A stretch of DNA of 64,000 nucleotides from Haloferula rosea (GTDB lineage: Bacteria; Verrucomicrobiota; Verrucomicrobiia; Verrucomicrobiales; Akkermansiaceae). The stretch lies in contig NZ_JAENII010000009.1 of the NCBI RefSeq assembly GCF_016595525.1, positions 1 to 64,000 of the forward strand, in the 5' to 3' direction. Every line of letters starts with the position of its first letter. Within the stretch, counting starts at the first letter, position 1. The notes below the pieces were generated by a model that did no database searches, was not told the DNA's origin, and worked only from the letters and a program-made list of their open reading frames with translations. Below, one piece after another: positions 243 to 64,000 of this stretch. Position numbers and translations under genes: made by a program.

Positions 243-252
243 GGGTAGTGCC

Positions 253-281
253 GAGTGAGAAGTAAAAAGTGGAAAGTGGGG
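253..281 (+). repeat. GTGAGAAGTG-type repeat tract
   Basis: The spacer upstream of the esterase holds a short run of GTGAGAAGT / AAAAAGTGGAAAGTG units. Similar tracts occur at 3301-3336, 4674-4800, 11485-11515 and, inverted, 63568-63600. Confidence 0.6.
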
Positions 282-1204: not shown

Positions 1205-1504
1205 TCATCTAGCGGTCGACAGCTTCTCGGCGGGTTGGATCCCGGATGTGAGTTTCTTGCGGTCCTTGGCGAGCGCGCGGAAATCGCATTCCACCTGGAG
1301 ACCGTGCCAGAAGGTGTCGGTTTGGCCAAAGAAGGCGCCGAAGCGCAGCGACATGGCAGGCGTAATGGAGCGCTTGCCGTGGACAATCTCATTGATGGCG
1401 CGTGGTGCGACACCGATGGCTCGAGCCATGGCATTCTGGGAGATGCCCATGGGTTTGAGATATTCCTCAAGAAGGATCTCGCCGGGTGTGATCGGTGACT
1501 TCAT
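1205..1504 (-). CDS. higA: HigA-type antitoxin (XRE helix-turn-helix)
   Basis: 99 residues beginning [16 protein letters not shown], the typical HigA/VapI N-terminus. The helix-turn-helix spans about residues 20-45 ([12 protein letters not shown] ... [12 protein letters not shown]), followed by the usual TDTFWHGLQ segment. HigA proteins neutralise the ribosome-dependent RNase HigB and repress their own operon by binding an inverted repeat. Here the inverted repeat at 1508-1526 lies immediately before the start codon. Because the upstream toxin frame lacks its stop, the same reading frame continues from the toxin into this gene. The ATG at 1504 is still the canonical start. No Shine-Dalgarno sequence is visible. 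Confidence 0.9.
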
Positions 1505-1507
1505 GAG

Positions 1508-1526
1508 TATAACGTATGACGTTATA
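1508..1526 (-). promoter_or_regulatory. Inverted repeat before higA, candidate HigA operator
   Basis: Perfect 7-bp arms, TATAACG and CGTTATA, are separated by 5 nt. HigA/GraA-type antitoxins bind TAACG...CGTTA palindromes, so this is a plausible autoregulatory operator. Its place between toxin and antitoxin, instead of before the toxin, is unusual. Confidence 0.6.
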
Positions 1527-1535
1527 GGGGTGTCG

Positions 1536-1810
1536 TCAATGGTAGTCGCAAATGGCCACATCGGCACGTCATCGGTCCAGCGGAAGACGACGCGCCACTG
1601 GGAATTGATTCGGATGGAGTGGAAGCCGGCAAGGTCGCCCTTGAGGGCTTCGAGGCGATTGCCGGGTGGGACCTTGAGGTCGGAAAGTTTGCCCGCCTGA
1701 TTCATCTGAATCAGCTTCCGCAGGGCGACACGAGCGATGGCGTTGTAGCGGCGGTTCCGTTCATTGCGGAAAAGCAGCTCGGTGTCGCGGTCGGTAAAGT
1801 TGCGGATCAT
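1536..1810 (-). pseudogene. higB: HigB-type toxin with apparent -1 frameshift near its C-terminus
   Basis: The frame opens [14 protein letters not shown] and carries the HigB core [13 protein letters not shown] and [14 protein letters not shown] (residues 65-78). RelE/HigB toxins are mRNA interferases about 92 residues long. After residue 81 (WTDD) the frame departs from the family. Adding one base near 1575 restores the usual ending ADVAICDYH followed by TGA at 1538-1536, which gives 91 residues. As written, the frame reads through the missing stop and fuses in frame to HigA. This could be a real inactivating mutation, programmed frameshifting or a sequencing error; the sequence alone cannot say. 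Confidence 0.8.
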
Positions 1811-1880: not shown

Positions 1881-4598
1881 TCAATCGAAGAGATCCAGCT
1901 GCGGTGGATTCGGTTCCGGCGCGTTCTTGGGGCGGGTGTTCTTTGCCTTGGGGCCACGCTTCTTCGCATCAGGCTTGGCGCTGTGCATCTCGAGGTGGGA
2001 GAGGATGTCCTTGGCGCGTTCGATGATGGGCTTTGGCAGGCCCGCGAGGCGGGCGACTTGGATGCCGTAGGATTTGTCGGCGGCGCCGGGGAGAATTTTG
2101 CGTAGGAAGATGATCTCGTCGTTCCACTCGCGCACGGCGACGTTGTAGTTCTCGACGGCGGCCTTGGCGTTGGAGAGGTCGGTGAGCTCGTGGTAGTGCG
2201 TGGCAAACAGGGTGCGGCACTGGATTTCATCGTGCAGGTGCTCGGCGACGGACCAGGCGATGGAAAGGCCGTCGAAGGTGGCGGTGCCGCGGCCGATCTC
2301 GTCGAGGATGACGAGCGATTGGTCGGTGGCGTGGTTGAGGATGAGGGCGGTCTCATTCATCTCGACCATGAAGGTGGACTGGCCGCGTGAGAGGTCGTCG
2401 CTGGCGCCGACGCGGCAGAAGATGCGGTCGACGAGGCCGATGGTGGCGGACTCGGCGGGGACATACGCGCCGATCTGGGCCATGAGGGTGATGAGCGCGA
2501 CCTGGCGGATGTAGGTGGATTTGCCGGCCATGTTGGGGCCGGTGAGGATTTGGATGAGGGAGGGGTCTCCGGTTGCCTGTTGCTCGGGGGGGTGGGGTGA
2601 CGTTTGTGGTTCGGCGGGGGGGGAGGGGCGAGCTGAAGCTCGCGGTCCGTCTGGGGGTGGGATGAAGAGGGTGTCGTTGGGGACGAATTTTTCGTCGACG
2701 AGGGTTTGTTCGAGGACGGGGTGGCGGCCGTTGTTGATTTCGAGGTGGCGGCTTTCTTCGAGAACGGGGCGGCAGTGGCGGTGGGTCTGGGCGGTCTCGG
2801 CAAGGCCGGCGAGGACGTCGAGCTCGGCGACGGCGGCGGCGGTCTGTTGGAGGGCGTCGAGGTGTTCGCAGACCTGCTTGCGAAGTTCGAGGAAGAGCTC
2901 GTATTCGAGTTTTTTGGAGCGTTCTTCGGCACCGAGCACCTTGTTCTCCATCTCCTTGAGCTTGGGGGTGATGAAGCGCTCGGCGTTGGCCATGGTCTGC
3001 TTGCGCGTGTAGTCGTCGGGGACGGTCGCGGTGGCGAGCTTGGCGGCGGAGATTTCGATGAAGTAGCCGAAGACGTTGTTGAATTTGACTTTGAGGGTGT
3101 CGATGCCGGTGCGCTTGCGCTCGTCTTCCTGAAGCTGGGCGATCCACTGTTTGCCATCGGAGGAGGCGGAGCGGAGTTCGTCGAGCTCGGCGCTGTGGCC
3201 TTCTTTGATGAGGCCGCCGTCTTTGAGGGTGGCAGGTGGTTCGTCGGAGAGGGAGGACTCGAGAAGGGTGGTGAGTTCGGTGAAGTCGTGGAGACGATCG
3301 GAGTGGGAAGTGACGAGTGACGAGTGAGAAGTGGAGGAGGTGCCGCCTTCGGCGGATTCGGTGGGGGGCTCCGCGGGTTGGGGGGCGCGACTGGAGTCGC
3401 GCGCTCCGTCTTGAGAGTGACTGTCTCCTAGGGCCACAGGCGGGACGCCTGTGCTCCTTGAGTTGGGGGACAGGCTGGCGAGGTCGTCCTTGAGCTGGGG
3501 GATGTGGCTGAGGGAGATGGCGAGGGCTTGGAGGTCGCGGGCGTTGCCGGCGCCCTGGCTCAGGCGGGAGGTGGTGCGTTCGACGTCGCGGATGCCTTGC
3601 AGGGACTCGCGGACTTTGGCGAGGATGAAGGGCTCGGCGAGGAAGGCGGCGATCATTTCCTGGCGGGCGAGCAGGGGTTGGAGGTCGCGTAGGGGGTGAA
3701 GGATCCAGTCGCGCAGGAGGCGCGCGCCCATGGGGGTCTTGGTGCGGTCGAGCACACCGAGCAGGGTGTGCTTGCGGCCGGAGCGGGACTCGACGAGGTC
3801 GAGGTTGTTCTGCGAGGCGGCGTCGATGAGGACGAGGCGGTCGTTCTCGCGGACTTTCAGCGCGCGCAGGTGCTCACAGGGACGGCGAAGCTGGTGGATG
3901 AGGTAGTGGAGGATGGCGCCGGCGGCGCCGGTGGCGGCGTGCATGTCGTCGCAGCCGAAGCCGGCGAGCGAGTGGACGCCGAAGTGGTCGCAGAGGAGCT
4001 GGCCGGCGGGCTCGGGGAGGAAGGCGAAGGCGTCGTAGTCCTGCGCGGCGGGGATGGCGGCGAAGTGCTCGATCTGGTCGTCGGCGTAGAGGAGCTCGGA
4101 GGGGGTGAGGCGGGCGAGCTCGTCGTCGAGCGATCCGCGCGTGGTGAACTCGGCGACGCTGAATTCGCCGGTGGTGTGGTCGACGCAGGCGAGGCCCCAT
4201 TTTTTTCCCATCTGATAGACGGCGGCGAGGTAGTTGGGGCGGTTGTCCTCGAGGAGGTTGTGCTCGATGATGGAGCCGGCGGAAATGATGCGGGCGATCT
4301 CGCGCTCGACGAGTTTCCCGGGGATGGGCTCGGAGGTTTGCTCGGCGATGGCAACGCGCTTGTTCGCTTTGACGAGCTTGGCGATGTAGGCATCGGCGGC
4401 GTGGTAGGGCACGCCGCACATGGGGATGGAGTTGCGCCGGGTGAGGGCGACATTGAGGATGGGCGCGGCGGTCTGCGCGTCCTCGAAGAACATCTCGTAG
4501 AAGTCGCCGAGGCGGTAGAGGAGCAGGACGTCGTCGGGCAAGGAGCGGCGCATCGTTTGATACTGCGCCATCATGGGGGTGAGCTTCTTGCCTGCCAT
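1881..4598 (-). CDS. mutS: DNA mismatch repair protein MutS with two repeat-derived inserts
   Basis: 905 residues from the ATG at 4598; a TTG 36 bp upstream is possible. MutS recognises mismatches as a dimer and signals repair through its ATPase. The N-terminal mismatch-binding domain is intact: LTPMMAQYQ and then [11 protein letters not shown], which contains the Phe-x-Glu wedge. The ATPase is also intact: Walker [10 protein letters not shown] near residue 685, then [30 protein letters not shown] and FATHYHEL. Two low-complexity inserts interrupt the chain. One, at about 377-432, lies in the core/lever region; the other, at about 645-678, lies just before Walker A. The DNA of both is made of the palindromic and GTGAGAAGTG repeats seen in nearby spacers. 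Without them the length is about 820, near the family norm, so the enzyme is probably functional. Confidence 0.95.
2628..2648 (+). repeat. Palindromic repeat with GGTCC tail inside mutS
   Basis: Arms GCGAGCT and AGCTCGC flank a GA loop, followed by GGTCC. Read on the minus strand it encodes part of the second MutS insert (residues about 645-655). Confidence 0.6.
3301..3457 (+). repeat. Composite mosaic repeat inserted in frame in mutS
   Basis: In order on the plus strand: GTG-GGAAGTG/GAGAAGTG units (3301-3336); GTGCCGCCTTCGGCGG; a GGTGGGGGGCTCCGCGGG stretch; a palindrome with arms GCGCGACT/AGTCGCGC plus GCTCC (3385-3407); and a palindrome with arms CACAGGCG/CGCCTGTG plus CTCC (3435-3457). 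The same modules occur in the same order in the spacers at 4674-4926 and 11466-11645. Here they are translated on the minus strand as a Ser/Thr/Pro-rich linker in MutS. Confidence 0.7.
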
Positions 4599-4981
4599 TG
4601 GTGGGAGGATGAACGCCGGATCTGGCTGGGCCAATGTTGAAGTGGGGGGAAGTTTGTGGAGGCCCGCTGCGCGGGAGTGAAAAGTGCCCCGCCGTCGCTC
4701 TCCGAGCTATGGCGGGCAGGCGAGTGAGAAGTGGAAAGTGCCGGGATGGGGGAGCCCGCTGCGCGGGAGTGGAAAGTGCCAAGTGAGAAGTGGAAAGTGC
4801 CGGGGTTGGGGGGCTCCGCGGGATGGGGGCTTGGGTTGTGGGCTTGGGTTGTGGGCTTGGGTTGTGGGGCGGGTTGTGGGGCGGGTTGTGGGACGGGTTG
4901 TGGGACGGGTTGGAAACCCGCGCTCCTGATGGGGGGTGGGTGCGGGTGGGGGGAATTGGCTTGTCAGGGGGTGGGGGGGTG
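4599..4981. repeat. Gene-free spacer filled with mosaic repeats
   Basis: The 383 bp between mutS and the metalloprotease contain several repeats. There are two CCCGC-TGC-GCGGG palindromes followed by AGTG (4663-4679 and 4755-4771), a larger palindrome at 4686-4717 (outer GCCC..GCC/GGCGGGC, inner GCTC/GAGC), and several GTGAGAAGTGGAAAGTG tracts (4723-4800). A GGGGGGCTCCGCGGG block follows. Next come tandem 13-bp units GGGCTTGGGTTGT, which change into 12-bp GGGGCGGGTTGT / GGGACGGGTTGT units (about 4826-4911). The run ends in a palindrome CGGGTT/AACCCG with GCTCC (4906-4926). I see no credible gene. Confidence 0.75.
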
Positions 4982-11465: not shown

Positions 11466-11645
11466 GTGAAGCCCGCGGTGCGGGAGTGACGGGTGAAAAG
11501 TGAGAAGTGAAAAGTGGGGGGTGCCACCTTCGGTGGGGGAGGTGGGGGCTCCGCTTGCTCGTTGCTCCGCTTGCTGTGAAGCGGGTTGGAAACCCGCGCT
11601 CCTGAGGGGGGTGGCTCCTGAGGTGGTGGCTCCTGAGGGGGGTGG
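11466..11645 (+). repeat. Mosaic intergenic repeat between the GspG-domain and parvulin genes
   Basis: The order matches the element inside mutS: a CCCGC/GCGGG palindrome with AGTGA (11472-11488), GTGAAAAGTGAGAAGTG units, GTGCCACCTTCGGTGG, a GGTGGGGGCTCCGC block, and a palindrome GCGGGTT/AACCCGC with loop GGA and tail GCTCC (11581-11602). Three tandem 15-16 bp GCTCCTGAGG units (11598-11644) end exactly at the parvulin stop codon. Confidence 0.7.
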
Positions 11646-38423: not shown

Positions 38424-38858
38424 GGGTGGGGAAACCACCGAATGGCCTAAATGGTCATGCCACATCACGTTCTCGAGTCCCTTCTTGTAGCAGCGCCGGT
38501 TGAGATCCCTCTGATTGGGGTTGGAGGAGCTGGAGAACCGCGAAAGGGGTGCGAAATGAGAGCTGCGCATGCTCTGCTGTTTGTGTGTGGAAAGGAGAGA
38601 ATAGAGAGTGGAGTCGTGTGGCCGAAGGTGAGGGCGGTGCGAGGGCGTGTGAGTTGCGGCGGCTTGGAAAGCCGCGGTCCCTATTCGCTGGCATCGCTTG
38701 GCCCCTGACCCCTCAACCCCTGACCCCTTGGGCGGCATGGGTCGATGGGTTCGTCGAATGAATGGGGTCGTGTAGTCTTACACGCATGCTCTGCGGGGCC
38801 GGTGAATGGTTTGGGCTGGTCGCTGGGCGGGTGGGTTCCCAAAGTCACGCCGCGTTCG
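38424..38858. repeat. 435-bp gene-free spacer with palindromic repeat
   Basis: No credible gene. It contains a palindrome GCGGCTT/AAGCCGC with loop GGA and tail GGTCC (38659-38680), a duplicated CCCCTGACCCCT stretch near 38701-38730, and purine-rich sequence reminiscent of other repeat spacers. The promoter of the CPBP-thiL-trmL operon should lie near its right end. Confidence 0.6.
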
Positions 38859-63567: not shown

Positions 63568-63612
63568 CACTTTCCACTTTTCACTTCACACTTGGCACTC
63601 CCGCTCAGCGGG
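63568..63612 (-). repeat. Repeat tract between cysD and cysN
   Basis: On the minus strand: CCCGC-TGA-GCGGG palindrome (63600-63612), then AGTG followed by GTG-AAGTG-AAAAGTG-GAAAGTG units (63568-63599). This is the inverted form of the modules in the 4.7-kb and 11.5-kb spacers, placed inside an otherwise compact operon, 8 bp before the cysN start. Confidence 0.65.
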
Positions 63613-63620
63613 CAATCACC

Positions 63621-64000
63621 ATGGACCTTCTTCGTTTCACAACCGCCGGTTCCGTCGACGACGGCAAATCCACCCTCATTGGCCGCCTTCTCTATGATTC
63701 CAAATCGATCTTCGAGGATCAGATGGAAGCCGTGGAAGAGAGCTCACGCCGTCGCGGTGACGAGAACGTCAACCTTGCCCTTCTGACCGACGGTCTCAAG
63801 GCTGAGCGCGAGCAGGGCATCACCATCGATGTCGCCTACCGCTACTTCGCGACACCCAAGCGCAAGTTCATCATCGCCGATACACCGGGGCACATCCAGT
63901 ACACCCGCAACATGGTGACCGGCGCCTCCACCGCCAACCTCGCCATTATCCTCGTCGATGCGCGCAAGGGCGTGATCGAGCAGACCAAGCGACACAGCTT
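63621..64000 (+). CDS. cysN: Sulfate adenylyltransferase subunit 1, N-terminal part only
   Basis: The frame opens at 63621 and runs off the right edge (about 126 residues seen). It is the GTPase subunit of ATP sulfurylase. The P-loop reads [21 protein letters not shown]; the switch region [15 protein letters not shown] and the G3 motif [17 protein letters not shown] are intact. Whether a CysC domain is fused at the C-terminus cannot be seen; a separate cysC exists upstream. Confidence 0.95.

Follow-up and report, generated by a model that had tools for sequence, protein, structure and literature searches.

Dispersed REP and heptameric repeats as in-frame inserts in two loops of mutS in Haloferula rosea and its relatives

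Known intragenic repeats and the mutS locus

The presence of REPs in coding genes, DNA-repair genes and genes of Verrucomicrobia included, is already known. In 2013, GTAG/CGTC REPs linked to RAYTs were described inside open reading frames, many of which belong to DNA synthesis and repair genes (main text of PMC3733652). According to the same text, intragenic REPs are found in the uvrA and DNA ligase genes of Opitutus terrae (Verrucomicrobium), with recB and dnaE2 as further cases, and in two Xanthomonas species roughly the same position in recB is occupied by REPs that differ. Neither mutS nor priA nor Haloferula is named in that main text, the target ORFs being listed in its Additional file 3. 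The REP-RAYT system, described in 2010, consists of REPs flanking a PF01797 gene with HUH and NP(L/V)(R/K)xG motifs, with dispersed copies of the same family (cited sections of PMC2817692). In Rickettsia, RPEs are palindromic elements of 105-146 bp with terminal inverted repeats that lie in frame in conserved genes, and an RPE-bearing guanylate kinase was translated and active, with a changed substrate affinity (cited sections of PMC2229807). The heptameric repeats of cyanobacteria, Xanthomonas and Beggiatoaceae form dispersed 7-nt arrays, which are mostly intergenic with a minority in ORFs (cited sections of PMC4692102 and PMC4679880).

The locus analyzed here is part of the draft genome of Haloferula rosea (G000; 4.68 Mb, 69 contigs). 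The window, i.e., the whole stretch of 64,000 nt under analysis (G000:C69:1-64000), contains a mutS gene whose product has domains I to V and Walker A and is thus a MutS mismatch repair protein. The gene holds two derived in-frame inserts built from kinds of repeats that are dispersed between genes. Like the GTAG/CGTC REPs, the palindromes involved are short and dispersed, share a conserved head, are linked to RAYTs (types A and B) and lie inside ORFs; unlike those in the main text of PMC3733652, their head is GGASC (GGAGC or GGACC), which places them outside the GTAG or CGTC superfamily, and the inserts are composites with heptamers. As with the RPEs of PMC2229807, palindromic DNA is found in frame within conserved protein genes, but the units are hairpins of 21-23 nt plus 7-nt tandem units in a genome with RAYT-like genes, and they are not RPEs as characterized in the cited sections. 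The resemblance to the REP-RAYT system of PMC2817692 extends to same-family REPs flanking a PF01797 gene, here with HVH and NPV[KR]AG motifs, and to dispersed copies; in contrast to the cited description, matches in H. rosea are few (10 of type A, 30 of type B) and several REP families coexist. The heptamers share with those of PMC4692102 and PMC4679880 the dispersed 7-nt arrays, mostly intergenic and some genic, and differ from the cited accounts in their units (AGTGNNN, AATCNNC, GGGGTCA, GATCACT) and in their location beside REPs in loops of conserved genes. A literature search on MutS with palindromic repeats and on Haloferula with repeats, which covered titles and abstract openings and few subscription journals, found no description. 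New here are the heptamer-REP composites and the recurrent replacement at the same sites.

Composition of the inserts and origin of their modules

The coordinates of all features are summarized in Table 1. Site 1 comprises two REP-type hairpins and a heptamer array. In local alignments, positions 3301-3457 reached a score of 42 with the spacer 11466-11645 (300 dinucleotide shuffles: mean 13.7, sd 2.4, maximum 23) and of 34 with the spacer 4674-4926 (shuffles: mean 14.6, sd 2.3, maximum 24.5), and the background maximum was 19.5 among 500 random segments of window positions 13000-63000. The module order common to site 1 and 11466-11645 is heptamers, GGTGCCRCCTTCGGYGG, GGGGGCTCCGC, a REP and GCTCC, with the REP being of type A in mutS and of type C in the spacer. 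The sequence-only reading, whose residue numbers for this insert (about 377-432) correspond to the 905-aa start, had assigned the same modules in the same order to both spacers. This is accurate throughout for 11466-11645, apart from the REP type, while the alignment with 4674-4926 spans the heptamers to GGCTCCGCGGG only, the REP of that spacer lying further on. Likewise, the palindrome it had recognized in the insert before Walker A is present as an exact type B REP, but site 2 as a whole gave no alignment with the two spacers above shuffles (z of -0.7 and 1.0).

Table 1. Repeat features in and around mutS, given as positions in the window
Feature	Position	Strand	Description	Basis
mutS	1881..4634	-	917 aa; 905 aa from start at 4598	five Pfam MutS domains
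Insert site 2	2547..2669	-	123 nt, 41 codons, between VPNDT and LTGPNMAG	alignment and window sequence
REP type B, site 2	2628..2648	-	exact copy of REPs clustered round RAYT-like gene C5:129085-129895	
Insert site 1	3294..3470	-	177 nt, 59 codons, between QLKDDLASL and LHDFTEL	alignment and window sequence
AGTGNNN heptamer array, site 1	3302..3333	+	reads CACT... in mutS sense	motif scan
Small hairpin, site 1	3343..3355	.	CCGCC-TTC-GGCGG; near copy in spacer 11466-11645	
REP type A, site 1	3385..3407	-	exact copy of REPs beside RAYT-like gene C66:5006-5600	
REP-like hairpin type D, site 1	3435..3457	-	GGAGCACAGGCG-TCC-CGCCTGTG; encodes RSTGVPPVA	
Spacer 5' of mutS	4674..4926	+	heptamers 4723-4740 and 4768-4799; REP type C 4905-4926, minus strand	
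Spacer	11466..11645	+	heptamers 11485-11523; REP type C 11581-11602, minus strand; module order as site 1	
Further heptamer array	247..278	+	in spacer	motif scan
Further REP type C outside mutS	38659..38680	-		pattern match
Further heptamer array	63568..63599	-	just before open frame starting near 63622	motif scan

As a separate observation close to mutS, positions 1208-1810 (minus strand) hold a 201-aa ORF with a HigB-like toxin domain (PF05015) and HTH_3 in a single frame, a layout resembling a toxin-antitoxin fusion.

The palindromes show the architecture of REPs, with imperfect pairing, a short unpaired middle and the conserved GGASC head. REPs were matched by sequence patterns; a MAFFT alignment placed gaps in the stem and was unsuitable for a covariance model. 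Whole-genome counts in H. rosea cover three types. Type A gave 10 matches (up to three mismatches; reversed control 0), five of them beside C66:5006-5600, type B gave 30 (up to two mismatches; reversed control 3), of which eight lie within C5:129069-130084, and type C gave 24 (reversed control 0). Of the three mutS hairpins of H. rosea, two (types A and B) exactly match REP families clustered at two RAYT-like genes, out of seven PF01797 matches in this genome. The flanks of these genes were compared for types A and B. Type A REPs stand on both sides of C66:5006-5600 in REP/inverted-REP pairs, and the nearest flanks are inverted. The open frame C5:129085-129895 (likely start near 129286) likewise has type B REPs on both sides of its coding part, with the nearest flanks direct and an inverted copy further out. 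Both proteins have HVH and NPVKAG/NPVRAG motifs, two of the RAYT signatures, which also comprise a catalytic tyrosine and a threonine conserved close to the N-terminus. We infer that a RAYT mobilized the REP copies now in mutS. Within the examined stretches of G000 and its relatives G002, G014 and G017, type B stems were also seen to diversify by paired changes: among 49 matches with two mismatches, 39 have all six pairs preserved, and these represent seven distinct sequences.

The second repeat kind consists of dispersed arrays with three or more 7-nt units in tandem (reversed controls 0). AGTG arrays occurred nine times in 464 kb of real sequence, six of them in the 64-kb window, and not at all in one second-order Markov shuffle of the 464 kb. 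A strict period-7 scan missed degenerate arrays and was replaced by motif scans. The AATC pattern (up to one mismatch, overlaps counted apart) matched 290 times in G006, 55 times in G008 and 119 times in G011, with reversed controls of 0.

With regards to these heptamers, it has to be considered whether the inserts are low-complexity loops grown by replication slippage without any mobile element. The arrays consist of tandem units in varying numbers, and at site 1 three relatives (G011, G029 and G008) have heptamer-like sequence only, all of which would suit slippage; without a known mover, heptamers could arise in this way. Exact hairpins of 21-23 nt in common with distant RAYT loci, however, cannot arise locally, and neither can a module order in common with spacers. 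Slippage alone is thus an unlikely origin of the inserts and, given the exact REP copies, is refuted as a complete explanation, although the heptamer part may have grown by it.

We consider it probable that REP and heptameric repeats colonized two mutS loops, then turned over, and are read through in a MutS that is functional. Two small repeat kinds, RAYT-tied REP hairpins and heptameric tandem repeats, would have spread in genomes of the Haloferula group, and most of the copies found are between genes. Sense frames are free of stop codons in all seven REP types and in six of the seven heptamers tested, so that a copy in sense orientation that keeps the frame can persist when it lands in an exposed loop. 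H. rosea and three relatives would descend from an ancestor in which repeats entered the two loops; these loops would then have kept swapping and gaining modules, and the inserts would be translated as disordered peptide with MutS remaining functional. Their translation, their neutrality and this order of events are presumed.

Derived inserts and continued selection on MutS

The search for mutS covered 57 genomes, 54 of which had a match, and 30 MutS loci were aligned. Large inserts at both sites were present in four of the 30 (G000, G014, G002 and G017). A member of another genus of the family, G023, has a 135-nt insert at site 1 that looks different by eye, and no large insert was seen in the remaining proteins of the 30-protein alignment. 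At the DNA level, site 1 measured 21-45 nt in the six insert-free genomes inspected and site 2 measured 33 nt in the eight inspected genomes that have no insert there. A tree built from 826 core columns placed the four insert-bearing MutS in one clade (support 84/60), whose sister, G016 of the same genus, has neither insert. Since most relatives are without inserts and the four bearers are one clade with an insert-free sister, the inserts are derived and not ancestral, with their single gain resting on the branch of 84/60 support. This presence/absence comparison, proposed with the sequence-only reading, therefore agrees with its view that repeats can enter genes in frame: the inserts are neither ancestral nor unrelated to the dispersed copies, and the same kinds of elements recur in other genes.

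The module content of the two sites, read by eye from the DNA, differs between the four species. At site 1, GGGGTCA heptamers accompany a type B REP in both G014 and G017, together with AATCCGC heptamers in the former and CACT heptamers in the latter. G000 combines a type A REP with the type D hairpin and CACT heptamers, and G002 an A-like REP (two mismatches) with GGTCA-type and CACT repeats. Site 2 contains type B in G000 and G017 and a CCGGCTTCAGCCGG variant in G014 and G002. The heptamers at site 1 of G011 and G029 (DNA) and G008 (protein) are of the AATC type. Different repeats at the same two mutS sites in relatives point to a repeated colonization of tolerant protein loops; orthologous positions would hold different hairpins and heptamers because the loops exchanged and gained modules.

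Two congeners, G001 and G006 (about 90% and 92% complete), and G034 (88%) gave no mutS match, which may reflect gaps in the assemblies or a genuine loss. Of the three genomes searched for AATC heptamers, G006 has the most matches.

Repeats break assemblies, and the genome of the window is a draft in 69 contigs, so that an assembly error or a decaying pseudogene has to be weighed as well. This is hardly credible, since in-frame inserts occur at the same sites in four separately assembled species, including one represented by a single contig of 5.7 Mb, and a pseudogene would conflict with a dN/dS well below 1 and an intact predicted fold.

All catalytic MutS motifs of H. rosea are intact despite the two inserts and all five Pfam domains were detected, as the sequence-only reading had anticipated for the motifs. 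An AlphaFold model (50-row alignment) had a mean pLDDT of 83.6 overall, with values of 31-40 in blocks of residues 381-420 and below 50 at residues 652-662 and 666-675. The model predicts both inserts to be disordered loops on an intact MutS fold, in line with the earlier proposal that they are tolerated in linkers. Its best Foldseek match was E. coli MutS 1ng9_A (TM 0.88 by target, 0.78 by query), in which the equivalents by sequence are about residues 384-387 for site 1 and about 601-610 for site 2.

Core mutS dN/dS was 0.16-0.29 for five insert-clade pairs, 0.21 with G016 and 0.04-0.12 for five insert-free pairs. The values are well below 1, and purifying selection on mutS continues. In comparison with orthologue controls, mutS dN was low, as between 3/17 and 5/13 controls were lower or equal across six genome pairs, and its dS was the lowest of the compared orthologues in five of the six insert-clade pairs, with 1/18 controls lower or equal in the sixth. 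The mutS dN/dS ranked high accordingly (controls lower or equal: 24/26, 20/23, 13/13, 16/18, 15/17 and 21/28). The higher dN/dS of the insert clade is thus due to an unusually low dS, although it could also reflect relaxed constraint on mutS. Codon bias accounts for the low dS only partly, because mutS has an unusually high GC3 in G000, where 10 of 460 genes, mutS among them, reach its value, and in G002 (15 of 192), whereas its GC3 in G014 (109 of 231) and G017 (73 of 185) is ordinary.

These data also bear on the idea that the inserts modulate MutS activity and are kept for a useful change in mutation rate. Several points are compatible with it: the inserts lie within the core domain and adjacent to Walker A, dN/dS is higher in the insert clade, other genome-maintenance genes are struck (priA, a DnaE-type polymerase gene, dprA and uvrA), and the palindrome-bearing Rickettsia enzyme showed a changed substrate affinity (cited sections of PMC2229807). 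Nevertheless, we consider such a role very unlikely, as insert content is not conserved between species, mutS dN is low versus controls, and metabolic genes are struck too. The change in repair activity and mutation rate that had been suggested from the letters of the window found no support in these data, with mutS dN in the lower part of the controls and the catalytic motifs intact.

Repeats in other genes and their significance

The colonization of loops, as favored here, would extend beyond mutS. The loop of priA just before HGVTGSGKTE (pre-Walker A) carries different repeats in several relatives, with 22 of 30 loci readable. Heptamers and hairpins were found in G014, G017 and G013, repeat-like sequence in G002, and AATC-type heptamers, judged by peptides, in G008, G006 and G011, whereas G016 and several others have short linkers. 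The priA gene of H. rosea itself is without a large insert, because the match pieces leave only 9 nt between query residues 239 and 270. After the VTRVYRKAL motif of a U32 peptidase, G014 has a type C REP and G006 has AATC heptamers, and in an aldehyde-dehydrogenase-like gene G000 and G014 differ in the REP at the same site. A DnaE-type polymerase, dprA, uvrA, leuS, the U32 peptidase and others are carriers in at least one of five genomes. The polymerase inserts are known from H. rosea alone, where Pfam identifies a DnaE-type polymerase, which we take to be dnaE2. In total, about 17 gene families carry elements in G000, G002, G014, G017 and G006, metabolic genes included.

A survey of stretches of G000, G002, G017 and G014 yielded 297 elements, with overlapping heptamer matches counted apart and genes taken from our own hexamer-based caller. 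Most of these (242) were intergenic, a further 18 fell on gene edges or within short calls, and the other 37 were interior, in 25 called genes with mutS counted in all four genomes. The survey covered all type A, B and C matches of G000 and all B and C matches of G017. In G002, it took in the B matches up to about 4.41 Mb, apart from one near 1.63 Mb, and all but several of the type C matches, and in G014 all but eight loci. For AGTG heptamers, 24 of 29 distinct loci were examined (the five left out are from G005), and their genic status was judged by eye, for L160 also by Pfam.

Among the interior REPs, 29 of 33 were in sense orientation. The remaining four, all antisense, are doubtful: L254 and L268 have just five of six stem pairs intact, and the ORFs that contain L246 and L303 gave no NCBIfam match. 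Consequently, HsdR (L268) and DUF6288 (L254) were placed outside the 17 families, while a weak AbiEii-like ORF (L184) and an OlsE-like ORF (L267, REP near the 3' end) were retained. The stem test was unevenly applied, since a sense A-like match in the DnaE-type gene (three mismatches) also has an imperfect stem. Antisense frames contain a stop codon in only three of the seven REP types, so that the sense bias goes beyond stop avoidance alone. In the best 20 stretches of G006, 8 of 32 AATC arrays were genic, all of them sense, with one in leuS, two in a biotin-carboxylase/carboxyltransferase gene, two in uvrA and three in the U32 peptidase (the known priA array left out).

Two observations concern repeats outside genes. 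Intergenic REPs between co-directional genes and without an inverted partner within 150 nt were sense in 57 cases and antisense in 19, with direct clusters counted repeatedly. AGTG heptamers are located directly 5' of the same gene in G000 and G013 (L152 and L148, near 4030-4090), and this gene is presumably pyrE.

The carriers mutS, DnaE-type polymerase, priA, dprA and uvrA suggest a bias toward DNA-repair genes, which stays a suggestion because mutS was the seed of the survey, the genes are long and multi-domain, and the counts are raw. It is an improbable but conceivable extension that loops of genome-maintenance proteins are recurrent landing pads, entered by unrelated repeat families of different lineages far more often than loop tolerance provides for, with a load that affects genome stability. 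Insertion would then be tied to the place or time at which these genes or their products are active, and the loops in question would be the core loop of MutS, the pre-Walker-A loops of MutS and PriA, and loops of UvrA and the DnaE-type polymerase.

The mutS locus represents a natural experiment, with four related species, two shared sites in one well-understood enzyme, different repeats and insert-free relatives. It allows tests of how mobile repeats enter conserved genes, of loop tolerance and of the cost to a mismatch-repair protein. Furthermore, it adds a second group of Verrucomicrobia to the puzzle of why reports of intragenic REPs so often concern DNA-repair genes.
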